64,000 bases of DNA from Delphinus delphis (lineage: Eukaryota > Chordata > Mammalia > Artiodactyla > Delphinidae): NCBI RefSeq assembly GCF_949987515.2, contig NC_082694.2, positions 9,293,958-9,357,957 of the forward strand, in the 5' to 3' direction. Position 1 is the first letter of the stretch; every line of letters starts with the position of its first letter. The position numbers and the translations under genes were made by a program. The notes beneath the pieces are model-generated. The model worked only from the letters and a program-made list of their open reading frames with translations, was not told the origin of the DNA and made no database searches. Below, piece by piece: positions 1,056-62,308 of the stretch.

Positions 1056-48308
<47,253 letters not shown>

Positions 48309-54540: not shown

Positions 54541-54901
54541 GGGGCTTCCCTGGTGGTGCAGTGGTTAAGAATCTGCCTGCGAGTGCAGGGAACACGGGTT
54601 TGAGCCCTGGTCCAGGAAGATCTCACATGCCGCGGAGCAACTAAGCCCGTGCGCCACTACTACAGAGCCTGCGCTCTAGAGCCCGCAAACTACAACTACT
54701 AAGTCCGCACGCCACAACTACTAAAGCCTGTGCCTAGAGCCGATGCTCCACAACAAGAGAAGCCACCGCAATGAGAAGCCCGCGCACCACAACGAAGAGT
54801 GGCCCCCGTTCTCTGCAACTAGAGAAAGCCCACACGCAGCAACAAAGACCCAACACAGAAATAAATAAATAAATAAATAAATATTTAAAAAATAAATAAA
54901 T
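54541..54901 (+). mobile_element. CHR-type tRNA-derived SINE with target-site duplication
   Basis: It begins GGGGCTTCCCTGGTGGTGCA and ends in an AAAT-rich tail. It is flanked by the perfect 15-bp duplication AAAATAAAAATTACA at 54526-54540 and 54902-54916. Confidence 0.93.
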
Positions 54902-55308
54902 AAAATAAAAATTACAACCACAAGTTAAAACTTACTGCACAAAGGGAAAAACAAAAAATAACATACAAGGGAACTCCCATAAGGTTAACAGCTGATTTCT
55001 CAGCAGAAACTCTACAAGCCAGAAGGGAGTGGCATGATGTAAAGTGATGAAAGGGAAGAACGTACAACCAGCATTATTCTAACCAGCAAGGATATAATTC
55101 AGATTCAATGGAGAAATCAAAAGCTTTATAGACAAGCAAAAGCTAAGAGAATTCAGCACCACCAAACCAGCTCTACAACAAATGCTAAAGGAACTTCTCT
55201 AAGTGGGAAACACAAGAGAAGAAAAGGACCTACAAAAACAAACCCAAAACAATTAAGAAAAATGATCATAGGAACATACATATTGATAATTACCTCTATA
55301 CCAATAAA

Positions 55309-58300
55309 ATGGACAATCCATTCACAAACGTGAATGGATTAAATGCTCCAACTAAAAGACACAGGCTTGCTGAATGGATACAAAAACAAGACCCATATAT
55401 ATGCTGTCAACAAGAGACCCACTTCAGACCTAGGGACACATACAGACTGAAACCGAGGGGATGGAAAAAGATATTCCACGCAAATGGAAATCAAAAGAAA
55501 GCTGGAGTAGCTATACTCATATCACATAAGATAGACTTTAAAATAAAGAATGTTACAAGAGACAAGGAAGGACACTACATAATGATCAAGGGATCAATCC
55601 AAGAAGAAGAAGTAACAATTATAAATATATATACACCCAACATAGGAGCACCTCAATACATAAGGCAACTGCTAACAGCTATAAAAGAGGAAATCGACAG
55701 TAACACAATAATAGTGGGGGACTTTATAACACCTCACTTACACCAATGGACAGATCATCCAAAATGAAAATAAATAAGGAAACAGAAGCTTTAAATGACA
55801 CAACAGACCAGATAGATTTGATATTTATAGGACATTCCATCCAAAAACAGAAGATTACACTTTCTTCTCAAGTGCACACGGAACATTCTCCAGGATAGAT
55901 CACATCTTGGGTCACAAATCAAGCCTCAATATATTTAAGAAAATTGAAATCATATCAAGCATCTTTTCTGACCACAATGTTATGAGATTAGAAATGAATT
56001 ACAGGGAAAAAAACATAAAAAAACACAAACACATGGAGGCTAAACAATACGTTACTAAACAACCAAGAGATCACTAAAGAAATCAAAGAGGAAATAAAAA
56101 AATACCTAGAGACAAATGACAATGAAAACACAATGATCCAAAACTTATGGGATGCAGCAAAAGCAGTTCTAAGAGGGAAGTTTATAGCTATACAAGCCTA
56201 CCTCAAGAGACAAGAAAAATCTCAAGTAAACAATCTAACTTTATACCTAAAGGAACTAGAGGAAGAAGACCAAACAAAACCCAAAGTTAGCAGAAGGAAA
56301 GAAATCATAAAGATCAGAGCAGAAATAAATGAAATAGAAACAAAGAAAACAATAGCAAAGATCAATAAAACTAAAACCTGGTTCTTTGAGAAGATAAACA
56401 AAATTGATAAACCATTAGCCAGACTCATCAAGAAAAAGAGGGAGAGGACTCAAATCAACAAAATTAGAAATGAAAAAGGAGAAATTACAACAGACACCAC
56501 AGAAATACAAAGCATCCTAAGAGACTACTACAAGCAACTCTATGCCAATAAAATGGACAACCTGGAAGAAATGGACAAATTCTTAGAAAGGTATAACCTT
56601 CCCAGACTGAACCAGGAAGAAACAGAAAATATGAACAGACCAATCGCAAGTAATGAAATTGAAACTGCAATTAAAAATCTTCCAACAAACAAAAGTCCAG
56701 GACCAGATGGCTTCACAGGTGAATTCTATCAAACATTTAGAGAAGAGCTAACACCCATTCTTCTCAAACTCTTCCAAAAAATTGCAGAGGAAGGAACACT
56801 CCCAAACTCATTCTATGAGGCCACCATCACCCTGATACCAAAACCAGACAAAGATACTACAAAAAAAGAAAATTACAGACCAATATCACTGATGAATATA
56901 GATGCAAAAATCCTCAACAAAATACTACCAAACAGAATAAACAACACATTAAAAGGATCATACACTATGATCAAGTGGGATTTACCCCAGGGATGCAAGA
57001 ATTCTTCAATATACGCAAATCAATCAATGTGATACACCATATTAACAAATTGAAGAATAAAAACCATATGATCATCTCAATAGATGCAGAAAAAGCTTTC
57101 AACAAAATTTAACACCATTTATGATAAAAAACTATCCAGAAAGTGGGCATAGAGGGAACCTACCTCAACATAATAAAGGCCATATATGACAAACCCACAG
57201 GAAACACCATTCTCAATGGTGAAAAACTGAAAGCATTTCCTCTAAGATCAGGAATGAGACAAGGATGTCCACTCTTACCACTATTATTCAACACAGTTTT
57301 GGAAGTCCTAGCCATGGCAATCAGAGAAGAAAAAGAAATAAAAGGAATACAAATTGGAAAAGAAGAAGTAAAACTGTCACTGTTTGCAGATGACATGATA
57401 CTATACATAGATTATCCTAAAGATGCCACCAGAAAACTACTAGAGCTAATCAATGAATTTGGTAAAGTTGCAGGATACATAATGAATGCACAGAAATCTC
57501 TTGCATTCCTATACAGTAATGATGAAAAATATGAAAGATAAGGGAGCACTCCCATTTACCACTGCAACAAAAAGAATAAATACCTAGGAATAAACCTACC
57601 TAGGGAGACAAAAGACCTGTATGCAGAAAACTATAAGACACCGATGAAAGAAATTAAACATGATACCAACAGATGGAGAGATATACCATGTTCTTGGACT
57701 GGAAGAATCAATATTGTGAAAATGACTATACTACACAAAGCAATCTACAGATTCAATGCAATCCCTATCAAATTACCAATGGCATTTTTTACAGAACTAG
57801 AACAAAAAATCTTAAAATGTGTATGGAGACACAAAAGACCCCGAATAGCCAAAGCAGTCTTGAGGGAAAAAACCGGAGCTGGAGGAATCAGACTCCCTGA
57901 CTTCAGACTATACTACAAAGCTACAGTAATCAAGACAATATGGTACTGGCACAAAAACAGAAACAAAGATCAATAGAACAAGATAGAAAGCCCAGAGATA
58001 AACCCACAAACCTATGGTCAACTAATCTATGATAAAGGAGGCAAAGATATGCAGTGGAGAAAAGACAGTCTCTTCAATAAGTGGTGCTGGGAAAACTGGA
58101 CAGCTACATGTAAAAGAATGAAATTAGAACACTCCCTAACACCATACACAAAAATTAACTCAAAATGGATTAAAGACCTAAATGTAAGACCGGACACTGT
58201 CAAACTCTTAGAAGAAAACATAGGAAGAACACTCTTTGACATAAATCACAGCAAGGTCTTTTTTGATCCACCTCCTAGAGTAATGGAAATAAAACAAAAA

Positions 58301-59292
58301 TAAACAAATGGAACCTAATGAAACTTCAAAGCTTTTGCACAGCAAAGGAAACCATAAACAAGACCAAAAGACAACCCTCAGAATGGGAGAAAATATTTGC
58401 AAATGAATCAACAGACAAAGGATTAATCTCCAAAATATATAAACAGCTCATGCAGCTCAATATTAAAGAAACAAACAACCCAATCCAAGAAGACCTAAAT
58501 AGACATTTCTCCAAAGAAGACATACAGATGGCCAAGAAGCATATGAAAAGCTGCTCAACATCACTAATTATTAGAGAAATGCAAATCAAAACTACAATGA
58601 GGTATCACCTCACACCAGTTAGAATGGGCATCATCAGAAAATCTACAAACAATAAATGCTGGAGAGGATGTGGAGAAAAGGGAACCCTCTTGCACTGTTG
58701 GTGGGAATGTAAATTGATACAGCCACTATGGAGAACAGTATGGAGGTTCCTTAAAAAACTAAAAATAGGGCTTCCCTGGTGGCGCAGTGGTTGAGAGTCC
58801 ACCTGCTGATGCAGGGGACACGGGTTCGTGCCCTGGTCCGGGAAGATCCCACGTGCTGCGGAGCGGCTGGGCCCGTGAGCCATGGCCGCTGAGCCTGTGC
58901 GTCCGGAGCCTGCATGTCCGGAGCCTGTGCTCCACAACAGGAGAGGCCACAACAGTGAGAGGCCCGCATACCGCAAAAAAACAAAAACAAACAAAAAACT
59001 AAAAATAGAATTACCATATGACCCAGCAATCCCACTACTGGGCATATACCCAGAGAAAACCATAATTCAAAAAGACACATGCACCCCAATGTTCACTGCA
59101 GCACTATTTACAATAGCCAGGTCATGGAAGCAACCTAAATGCCCATCGACAGACGAATGGATAAAGAAGTTGTGGTACATATACACAATGGAATATTACG
59201 CAGCCATAAAAAGGAATGAAATTGAGTCATTTGTTGAGACGTGGATGGACCTAGAGACTGTCATACAGAGTGAAGTAAGTCAGAAAGAGTAA
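55309..59292 (+). pseudogene. L1 ORF2 remnant (endonuclease, reverse transcriptase, Cys-rich end)
   Basis: Broken pieces of the ORF2 polyprotein lie in order. The endonuclease N-terminal half is at 55309-55767 and is lost by a frameshift after VGDF. The upstream part of the reverse transcriptase is at 56133-57032 and the catalytic FADD box at 57383-57394. Later reverse-transcriptase and thumb-type segments are at 57644-57976 and 58049-58303. The Cys-rich end ([16 protein letters not shown]) is in 58318-58768. After the SINE the C-terminus resumes to a stop at 59290-59292. Multiple frameshifts and stops make it inactive. Confidence 0.9.
58769..58992 (+). mobile_element. CHR-type SINE (young, short form) nested in the L1
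   Basis: GGCTTCCCTGGTGGCGCAGT, GGGTTCGTGCCCTGGTCCGG and GAGCCATGGCCGCTGAGCC, then an A-rich tail, is the form abundant in whales and dolphins. It is flanked by the perfect 16-bp duplication AAAAAACTAAAAATAG at 58753-58768 and 58993-59008. Confidence 0.95.
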
Positions 59293-60382
59293 AACAAATA
59301 TCGTATATTAATGCATGTATGCGGAACCTAGAAAAATGGTACAGATGAACTGGTTTGCAGGGCAGAAATTGAGACAGAGATGTAGAGAACAGACGTATGG
59401 ACACCAAAGGGGGAAAACTGTGGTGGGGTGGGGATGGTGGTGTGCTGAATTGGGTGATTGGGATTGACATGTATACACTGATGTGTATAAAACTGATGAC
59501 TAATAAGAACCTGCAGTATAAAAAAATAACAAAAATACAACTAATACTAAACTTTCTTTAGGTTATTTGTATGGAAATATGTTAATATAAATGTTTCAGA
59601 CATTACATGAAATTTCTAAAAATCTTATATGTTCTGGTATAATGTTATAAGTCATAATTCTAGTTATTACTTTAAAATGTATATCTCAGAAATAACTAAA
59701 TTTCCTTGTCAATTACATTATTATGAACTTTCATCAAATCTTTAACCGTGGTCATTTTTAAGTCTTTTGTCACTTACAGACAATTCTGGGTGTACTCTGA
59801 TGCTGTTGCAAGTATGTTCCTATAAAAGGGTTTCATCTTCAAGGAATTCATGGAAAAGACTCTAACAAGTACAGGTTTCTGGTAACTGACTATACTGCTG
59901 AGCTGGATGAATAAGCATTTTCAGAACTCTAATGGAAAACTGATGAATTCATAAAAGTGCTAACAAAAGATCAAGATGAAAAAAATTAATTACATGGGAC
60001 TGAGTGAACTGATGAGAATGATTATAATTTTTGTGACTTTCTGTTTGAATTAAATAAAAACAAAAAAACAATCCACAAGGACTCAGAGGCAAAAAATATA
60101 CAAATCAATTTTCACTGCAAAGTAAAGGAGCTGTTACAGTGGAGGATTACTGGGCTGAATGTCAATATTATGACGTAGTGTGAGTGTGTTTTGTGTTTGG
60201 TAATTGCAATCATTGTTGCTTTTGTTGTGGTCATCCATGTACAATGCTTGGTGTTAGTTTATTTATCTCTTGTAAAAATAAAATACAGTGTGTGTGTGTG
60301 GAAAGAGAAAAAAATGGGCAAAGGATCTGAAGAGACATTTTTCCGAAGAAGATATACAAATGGCTAATAAACGATGCTCAGG

Positions 60383-60672
60383 GGAGACTTCCCTGGTGGT
60401 GCAGTGGTTAAGAATCCACCTGCCAATGCAGGGGACATGGGTTCAAGCCCTGGTCCAGGAAGATCCCACATGCCGCAAAGCAGCTAAGTCCATGTGCCAC
60501 AACTACTGAGCCCGCGCGCCTAGAGCCCATGCTCCGCAACAAGAGAGACCACCGCAATGAAAGGCCTGCACAATGCAACGAAGAGTAGCTCCTGATTGCC
60601 GCAACTAGAGAAAGCCCTCGCATAGCAAGGAAGACCCAATGCATCCAAAAATAAAAATTAATTAATTAAAAG
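60383..60672 (+). mobile_element. CHR-type SINE inside an older L1 fragment
   Basis: GACTTCCCTGGTGGTGCAGT, GGGTTCAAGCCCTGGTCCAG and an A-rich tail with an AATTA repeat. The interrupted L1 text resumes after the SINE, and the shared word GATGCTCA on both sides is a short, decayed target-site duplication. Confidence 0.85.
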
Positions 60673-60979
60673 AAAAAAGATGCTCAATGTCATTAGTCAT
60701 CAGGGAAATGTAGATCAAAACCATGATGAGATACTACTTTGCACATTCCAAGATGGCTATGATAAAAAAAAAAAAAGACAGATGATAACAAGTGTTGGGG
60801 AGGATACAGAGAAATTAGAACCTTCATCTATTGCTCATGGGACTGTAAAGTGGTGCAGTCACTTTGGAAAAGTCTAGCAGTTGCTCAAAAGGTTAAACAT
60901 AGAGTTACCATATGACCCAGCAATTCCCCTTGTAAGATTTTAAATACCATAGAAGAAATCATAAAGGAAAAGAGTGAAT

Positions 60980-60985
60980 AATAAA
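60980..60985 (+). terminator. AATAAA poly(A) signal used for the transduced L1 transcript (inferred)
   Basis: AATAAA lies 12 nt before the A tract that abuts the right target-site duplication, the position expected for the signal that ended the read-through transcript. Confidence 0.65.
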
Positions 60986-62308
60986 AAAAGAAGAAGAAAA
61001 AAAAAAAAACTTACTGCACAATGCTCGGGAAAGAATGATGTTTTGTGCTCTGGATGAGGCAGCCCAGTTCATGAGAAAAACACCCACATGTGGCAGGAAG
61101 AGTTCCAGAAAATGAGAGGAGCACAGAGAAGTAAAAAATCCACTTTAGCAGGTAGTCAACCAGACAAATCTGTCATTCCCCCTCTAACTCCAGGTCAGGC
61201 TCAGGACCCCCTGATTTCTCTCCTGCCCCTCTCCCACCCGATATCCCCTGGCGAGGCCTGGGCCTCAACACTCCAGACAGACCCTAAGGTGGAGGCTGGC
61301 CTTAATATTAGTTGAGAAAGCAAGTTCTTTGAGGTGGCCTCAGAGCTGTTAATCCAACCAAGAGAGAAAAAGGGACCCACCACCGCCACCAAAATCAACC
61401 TCTGGTCCCAGGGGTTCCCTGGAGTCCACTGGGAATTGAGGCCACCCAGGGCTCCCTGGTCTACTCCCAAGAGGAAACTTGATACGCTGGGGACTTCAGG
61501 GCCACCAATTCCTTAAAGCCCAGCAAATAAGAGAATGACAACAGCGTGGGTGCAAACTCCATGGCGTGGGTACAAACCTGGGGGCGGGCACACAGTGGCT
61601 GGGGGGCAGCTGCCAATCACATAAATGGAATGGGCAGAGTCATGGCAGCTGGGGGAAGAGGGATGGGCAAGGCCAACACAGAGAAACAGGAGCGGTGTCT
61701 CTGCAACGGCCAAGGGCAAGGGTGAGCAGCAAACTGGAGGCTGCACTCCAGGGAGAAGGCAGTGCTGGCCAGAGGGCAGGCTCAGAGCGCCCAGTGTCAA
61801 ACAGCTCCCGGGCATCTGCCCAGGTCAGCCACCAGCAAAGGAGGAGCCGGTATACGGGCAAGGACCAGGAAGGCCCCGATTGCGAATGTTCCAGAGCAAC
61901 AGCCAATGGCAGCAGAAAATGCCTCTGGCTTATATTTGGAACGGATGAATGTGTGCTTCTCTGGGAAGACTCAGAAATGTAAGTGCTGTCAATCAAGTTC
62001 TGATGCAAGGCAAGTGACGGGACGGCTGTGGTCAGAGAAGCCTGCTGCCGGGGTGGGGGGAACCACACCTTCCCTGAAGCAGAAATCACGAGCAGGCTGC
62101 CGAGGAGGCTTACAGAAGAGACGTTACACTACGGAAACCTCCACCACCTGATGCAAAGCCCAGACCGGCCGTGGGGTGGGGAGGAACCACCAAAAGCAGA
62201 GCACAGGGCGGGTTCCAGGAGGCGGGGCAGGAGGCGGAGCCCTGGGGGTCAGGGCTCCTTTATTCTAATTTGCTCACCTTGGGGACTTCCCTGCCCACTG
62301 GATGCTCC

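Follow-up and report, generated by a model that had tools for sequence, protein, structure and literature searches.

Partnered 3′ transductions of human L1 retrotransposons, in which an L1 and its downstream flank are enclosed by one target-site duplication and carry an inner and an outer poly(A) tract, are the closest described relatives of the insertion analyzed here, a 5′-truncated L1 with additional 3′ sequence in a 64,000-nucleotide stretch of the Delphinus delphis genome (C12:9293958-9357957, hereafter the window). In the parts of the published reports drawn on here, human 3′ transductions are 51-1570 bp long (PMC4862182), two tails are found in 72% of partnered transductions (PMC13009371), and transduction of either end accompanies 8.8% of polymorphic human L1 insertions (PMC12350158), while 3′ transductions in dog are put at ~1.8% (PMC12458276). 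Transduction families, in which several copies have one common transduced tail (PMC6425141), and chimeras formed by template switching or ligation, in which two sequences are joined within one duplication, provide further points of comparison. The L1 and short interspersed element (SINE) subfamilies of cetaceans have been reported to peak near 5% divergence (PMC6657726).

The dolphin insertion resembles these systems and departs from each of them. Unlike human partnered transductions, its L1 already has a lineage-wide 3′ extension, so that two pickups may be stacked, and its source is absent from the assembly. Unlike the tails of transduction families, this extension is carried by at least 39 other scored copies, and the 11 that were fetched all have it as their normal 3′ end. 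In published chimeras the other RNA lies 5′ of the L1 (PMC13174262), whereas here it lies 3′. We lean slightly toward the view that a cetacean L1 lineage acquired a different 3′ end when a 0.76-kb transduction, equipped with its own poly(A) signal, became fixed, that the lineage spread in this form, and that one of its members then produced a second transduction from a source copy that has since been lost. The mechanism itself is known; it is the stacking and the missing source that draw interest. The parts of the insertion are as follows.

54927..54942, + strand: left target-site duplication at a TT/AAAA site (word search in window and genome, random-pair comparison)
54943..59519, + strand: 5′-truncated L1 with the C-terminal end of open reading frame 1 (ORF1), ORF2 with stops and frameshifts, and a short 3′ untranslated region (UTR) (Pfam; PDB matches to L1 ORF1p and ORF2p)
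58769..58992, + strand: SINE inserted later into the L1 and flanked by a perfect 16-bp duplication of its own (58753-58768 / 58993-59008)
59520..59537, + strand: inner A-rich tract, differing in length between copies and probably what remains of the ancestral L1's tail (copy alignment, with a SINE inside it in L016; other L1 3′ ends)
59538..60301, + strand: extended subfamily 3′ UTR, probable ancient fixed 3′ transduction, with AATAAA at 60277-60282 and a (GT)n end (own-genome search, copy alignment)
60302..60314, + strand: second inner A tract, end point of the other 11 copies; its last six A's also match the donor (copy and donor alignments)
60309..60996, + strand: private transduced segment, an old L1 fragment with a SINE (~60385-60678) and ~67 nt of other sequence; donor C16:26339861-26340588, minus strand (own-genome search, donor alignment)
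60980..60985, + strand: AATAAA before the outer tail (motif, donor alignment)
60997..61005, + strand: outer A tract, running on into the A's of the right duplication (sequence)
61006..61021, + strand: right target-site duplication (word search in window and genome, random-pair comparison)

A probable single insertion within one duplication

The 16-bp word AAAACTTACTGCACAA occurs at 54927-54942 and at 61006-61021, and no third site with two or fewer mismatches was found in the window (0.07 expected). Eight exact copies were found genome-wide (2.66 Gb), including the two that bracket 54943-61005, and the ~40 bases inspected on either side of the other six have nothing obvious in common with the 54927/61006 site. 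Random pairs of 60-base pieces taken from the window (3980 pairs) had no word longer than 12 in common; of 3747 pairs drawn within 54900-61050, a set that can include the 16-bp repeats themselves, three had words of 13-14 and two had words of 16. The left copy is preceded by AAGTT, giving a cut at gTT/AAAA, and an AATAAA (60980-60985) and an A tract (60997-61009) precede the right duplication. The initial annotation, which had pointed to a perfect 16-bp repeat before the L1 and ~6.06 kb later, to a TT/AAAA endonuclease site at the left copy and to an A tract and AATAAA ahead of the second, was therefore correct on all of these points, and the pair is unique in the window. It had also named a duplication flanking only 54943-59540 as evidence against a single event; we looked for one and found none around that interval. 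The longest match between the left junction and the old L1 end is 11 A-rich bases positioned inside the L1, and neither this match nor an 8-of-9 match near 59548, seen by eye, was counted as a duplication.

The 16-bp repeat is the target-site duplication of one insertion, 54943-61005, in which the TT/AAAA-type duplication, the 5′-truncated ORF1/ORF2 sequence and the 3′ poly(A) of target-primed L1 retrotransposition are all present. L1 homology adjoins the left duplication: the frame from 54943, R-E-K-Q-K-I-T-Y-K-G, aligns with L1 ORF1p, matched among PDB entries by 2LDY (alignment) and 2YKO (table), and the ORF2 pieces match human ORF2p. The ORF1p alignment begins five residues within the duplication, where two of the five are identical, and becomes solid at 54943; the 5′ border of the L1 therefore has an uncertainty of a few bases, and microhomology is possible. 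No L1 comparators were found in collections of viral contigs and genome contigs.

An L1 subfamily with an extended 3′ UTR

The initial annotation placed the L1 3′ end at ~59.54 kb and described the first half of what follows as looking like the 3′ UTR of an unidentified gene, neither of which stood. An own-genome search with 59541-60310, in which 40 of 2027 first-look candidates were scored, returned besides the window itself 39 others that are 94-95% identical over nearly the whole query; we therefore put the copy number of the extension at at least 39 besides the window and claim no higher figure. In all 11 of the copies fetched for inspection the segment follows, in register, the L1 3′ end seen in the window, with a later SINE between the two in L016; homology ends at 60296-60324 in 10 of the 11. 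The alignment of the remaining copy, L012, extends to 60672 via a SINE in its flank, and its sequence turns to other flank past the tail. The layout common to the copies is an A-rich tract, ~0.76 kb of sequence, AATAAA, a (GT)n run and an A-rich tail, followed by differing flanks. Pairwise divergence of the extension averages 3.1% (1.8-4.2%) among the other 11 copies and 4.3% (3.5-5.1%) between the window and these 11; divergence of the short 3′ UTR was not used because of misaligned rows (up to 57%).

Target-site duplications were sought in nine of the 11 fetched copies, with L023 and L029 excluded because the query does not reach their L1 start. For eight of the nine the start was defined independently; the 16-base duplication of L024 set its own start and is not independent. 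Four of these eight (L022, L026, L028 and L031) have 10-12 exact bases in common across the L1 start and the outer tail; in each case 1-4 of 400 random windows gave a match at least as long. The same comparison at the inner tail, made in eight copies (without L022), gave longest matches of 3-7 bases. Duplications at the outer and not the inner tail indicate that the L1 and its extension are bracketed as a unit. Since these duplications enclose both parts and every fetched copy joins the segment to the L1 end, 59538-60301 is the 3′ UTR of an extended L1 subfamily, and the L1 continues through it to its own tail. As to a gene, four open frames had no Pfam match above the cut-off (best E 0.089), one frame of the first half had no match in PDB, and no gene was identified. 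An annotation that closes copies of this subfamily at the usual L1 3′ end sets the border wrongly and would report false 0.76-kb transductions, as happened in the first reading of this locus.

The (GT)n run (60283-60301 in the window) lies between the AATAAA and the A tail and so inside the RNA; its length varies in L010-L020 and is very long in L014. The usual place of GT-rich elements is downstream of the cleavage site. The right flank of L021 (from C13:44542907 on) contains, past the subfamily end, a little additional sequence and another A run ahead of a possible 8-bp duplication, and is perhaps another, very short 3′ transduction.

Origin of the extension

We infer that the extended form may be a minority lineage founded by a 3′ transduction and, less surely, that the 0.76-kb extension is an earlier transduction fixed in that lineage. 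The A-rich tract of variable length ahead of the segment, present in 11 of 12 aligned copies (window included; L016 has a SINE there), is what an ancestral tail might leave behind, and it argues against the alternative that 59538-60301 is the original 3′ UTR module of the L1 family, or was gained by recombination, and was never transduced flank. The stretches fetched for L021, L031, L029 and L028 happen to contain four further partial L1 3′ ends that bear on the same question. The one in L021 (82.6% identical) has an A-rich tail at exactly the inner-tract point and the one in L031 (79.9%) probably does so, again contrary to an original module, whereas the older L1 in L029 (69.6%) continues past this point into other sequence that is not A-rich; the one in L028 breaks off earlier. 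L1 3′ ends thus vary, and because the L029 end lacks an A-rich tail we weighted the original-module alternative up and a fixed transduction down. That alternative also accounts for the presence of the segment, with its own AATAAA, in 12 of 12 aligned copies, and we regard it as unlikely overall.

The L1 3′-end motif with CTGCNG has 5234 exact genomic matches, which were tallied without the sequence downstream and so yield no count of the short form. The first 100 in the list all lie on contig C1 and, counted by eye, comprise 97 with CTGCTG and three with CTGCAG; CTGCAG is the state in nine of the 12 aligned extended copies. A single-copy origin of 59538-60301 was not found. In the literature searched we found no description of a fixed cetacean L1 tail, and the subfamily may already be listed in Repbase. 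If the extension is indeed a fixed transduction, it shows how a known kind of accident can equip an L1 lineage with a new 3′ UTR and polyadenylation module, the old tail remaining readable between the parts.

The private segment and its donor locus

Beyond the point where the subfamily copies end, the insertion runs through a remnant of an older L1 that contains a SINE and through ~67 nt of other sequence up to an AATAAA, which is followed by an A tract and then by the right duplication. The initial annotation assigned this SINE to the CHR type, which points to a cetacean genome. An own-genome search with 60290-61005 (716 bases; 40 of 13944 first-look candidates scored) returned the window itself at 100% and one donor among the scored candidates, C16:26339861-26340588 on the minus strand, which matches query positions 20-709 at 89% with gaps and 984 bits. 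The next best scored matches have at most 347 bits, are shorter and lie almost wholly within the SINE. Extra sequence thus stands between an inner and an outer poly(A) tract inside the same duplication and is found at a locus elsewhere over 690 of 716 query bases, as in a 3′ transduction, and the AATAAA ahead of the outer tail is also in the donor. Of the ~1.45 kb of 3′ flank claimed by the initial annotation, ~0.76 kb is the subfamily tail in all 11 fetched copies and only ~0.69 kb is private; its claim of one retrotransposition of an L1 plus flank holds as the best reading. The suggestion that the second half could locate the source was borne out to the extent that this half comes from one locus on C16, but the longer L1 expected directly upstream is absent there in the assembly.

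Gaps excluded, donor and window differ at 31 of 656 positions (4.7%; 12/346 outside the SINE, 19/310 inside it). Half of this divergence, 2.4% (1.7% outside the SINE), is similar to what the L1 tail of the window has accumulated privately (1.9%, from 14 singletons in 729 columns; mean of the other 11 copies 1.2%), so the L1 and the donor piece can be of the same age, with wide errors. An inverted copy of the last 67 nt of the piece (60929-60995), 97% identical, also lies at C16:26338162, ~1.7 kb past the donor locus.

At the position corresponding to the start of the transferred piece, the donor sequence is GACAATT and then AAAAAATGGGC, which together form a perfect TT/AAAA endonuclease site (TT/AAAAAA). 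With no extended L1 beside it, the donor locus looks as an empty source site would, and the simplest story would be that a polymorphic source L1 at C16 sent out a copy and was then lost. About 15 bases upstream of the donor piece (just upstream of 26340588), two copies of ACAATAAAAA enclose ~100 bp that terminate in an A-rich stretch (by eye), perhaps a small retro-insertion of a different family, with no match to the extended L1.

Mechanism and alternative explanations

We consider it likely that the 5′-truncated L1, its extension and the donor piece were inserted together, from a read-through transcript, in one target-primed event. A source L1 of the extended subfamily would once have stood at C16, exactly at the TT/AAAAAA site, and its transcript would have read through its own poly(A) signal to the AATAAA ~0.69 kb downstream. 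Target-primed reverse transcription would then have placed a 5′-truncated cDNA at the TT/AAAA site, with the 16-bp duplication bracketing all parts. Later loss of the source would leave this insertion as its only trace found in the assembly. The private transduction thus places a source L1 no longer found in the genome and, if this account is true, the insertion is a fossil record of it.

Several results weigh against this account. The extended L1 is absent in 18.9 kb around the donor, and read-through at C16 was not observed; it is not exceptional for the reference to lack the source, since in the portion of one human study drawn on here 3/6 calls had a full-length reference L1 upstream (PMC4862182). 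The match to a TT/AAAAAA site is only modest evidence because A runs elsewhere also follow TT (13/68 of runs of at least six A's in the window, 4/27 in the donor stretch). At ~690 bp the piece is long compared with a median of 63 bp given for human L1 transductions from short reads (PMC9311842, consulted in part). Among the tested subfamily copies, L021, L025 and L027 have no convincing duplication (8, 6 and 3 bases, reached by 35, 88 and 387 of 400 random windows), and L030 has only 8 exact bases (9 of 400), or ~15 with one mismatch by eye, likely a duplication.

A different history would have an L1 ending in poly(A) at ~60314 and, later, a 5′-truncated retrocopy of a C16 transcript inserted in its A tail, the second duplication being hidden in the A's. 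Both junctions are A-rich, an A-only duplication would be invisible, and no extended L1 stands at the donor. However, two events are required, the second exactly in the L1 tail, the C16 locus has the look of an old L1 remnant and not of an mRNA, the breakpoint in the donor coincides with a TT/AAAA site, and the donor divergence is not below that expected from the L1's own, errors being wide. We judge such a history quite improbable. A template switch, with ORF2p starting on a C16 poly(A) RNA and jumping at an A run to the tail of an L1 RNA, would need no source L1 at C16 and would yield a single insertion with one duplication and a junction in an A run common to both templates, but it makes the TT before the A run a coincidence and the published chimeras have the other RNA 5′ of the L1 (PMC13174262, a study that, in the part drawn on here, sought 5′ additions and may miss 3′ ones). 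We find it the most doubtful of all. These last two histories would leave nearly the same sequence and jointly take about a quarter of the probability.

Neighboring elements

The L1 is both interrupted and adjoined by SINEs, which have the same type of duplication (58753/58993, 16 bp; 54526/54902, 15 bp). The adjoining SINE, 54541-54901, has a duplication that ends 10 bases ahead of the L1 target-site duplication. Older L1 fragments with a different 3′ end lie on the minus strand at 41720-43100. ARAGORN called a tRNA with an undetermined anticodon at 36838-36911, which is probably a tRNA-derived SINE head since it overlaps a SINE match.

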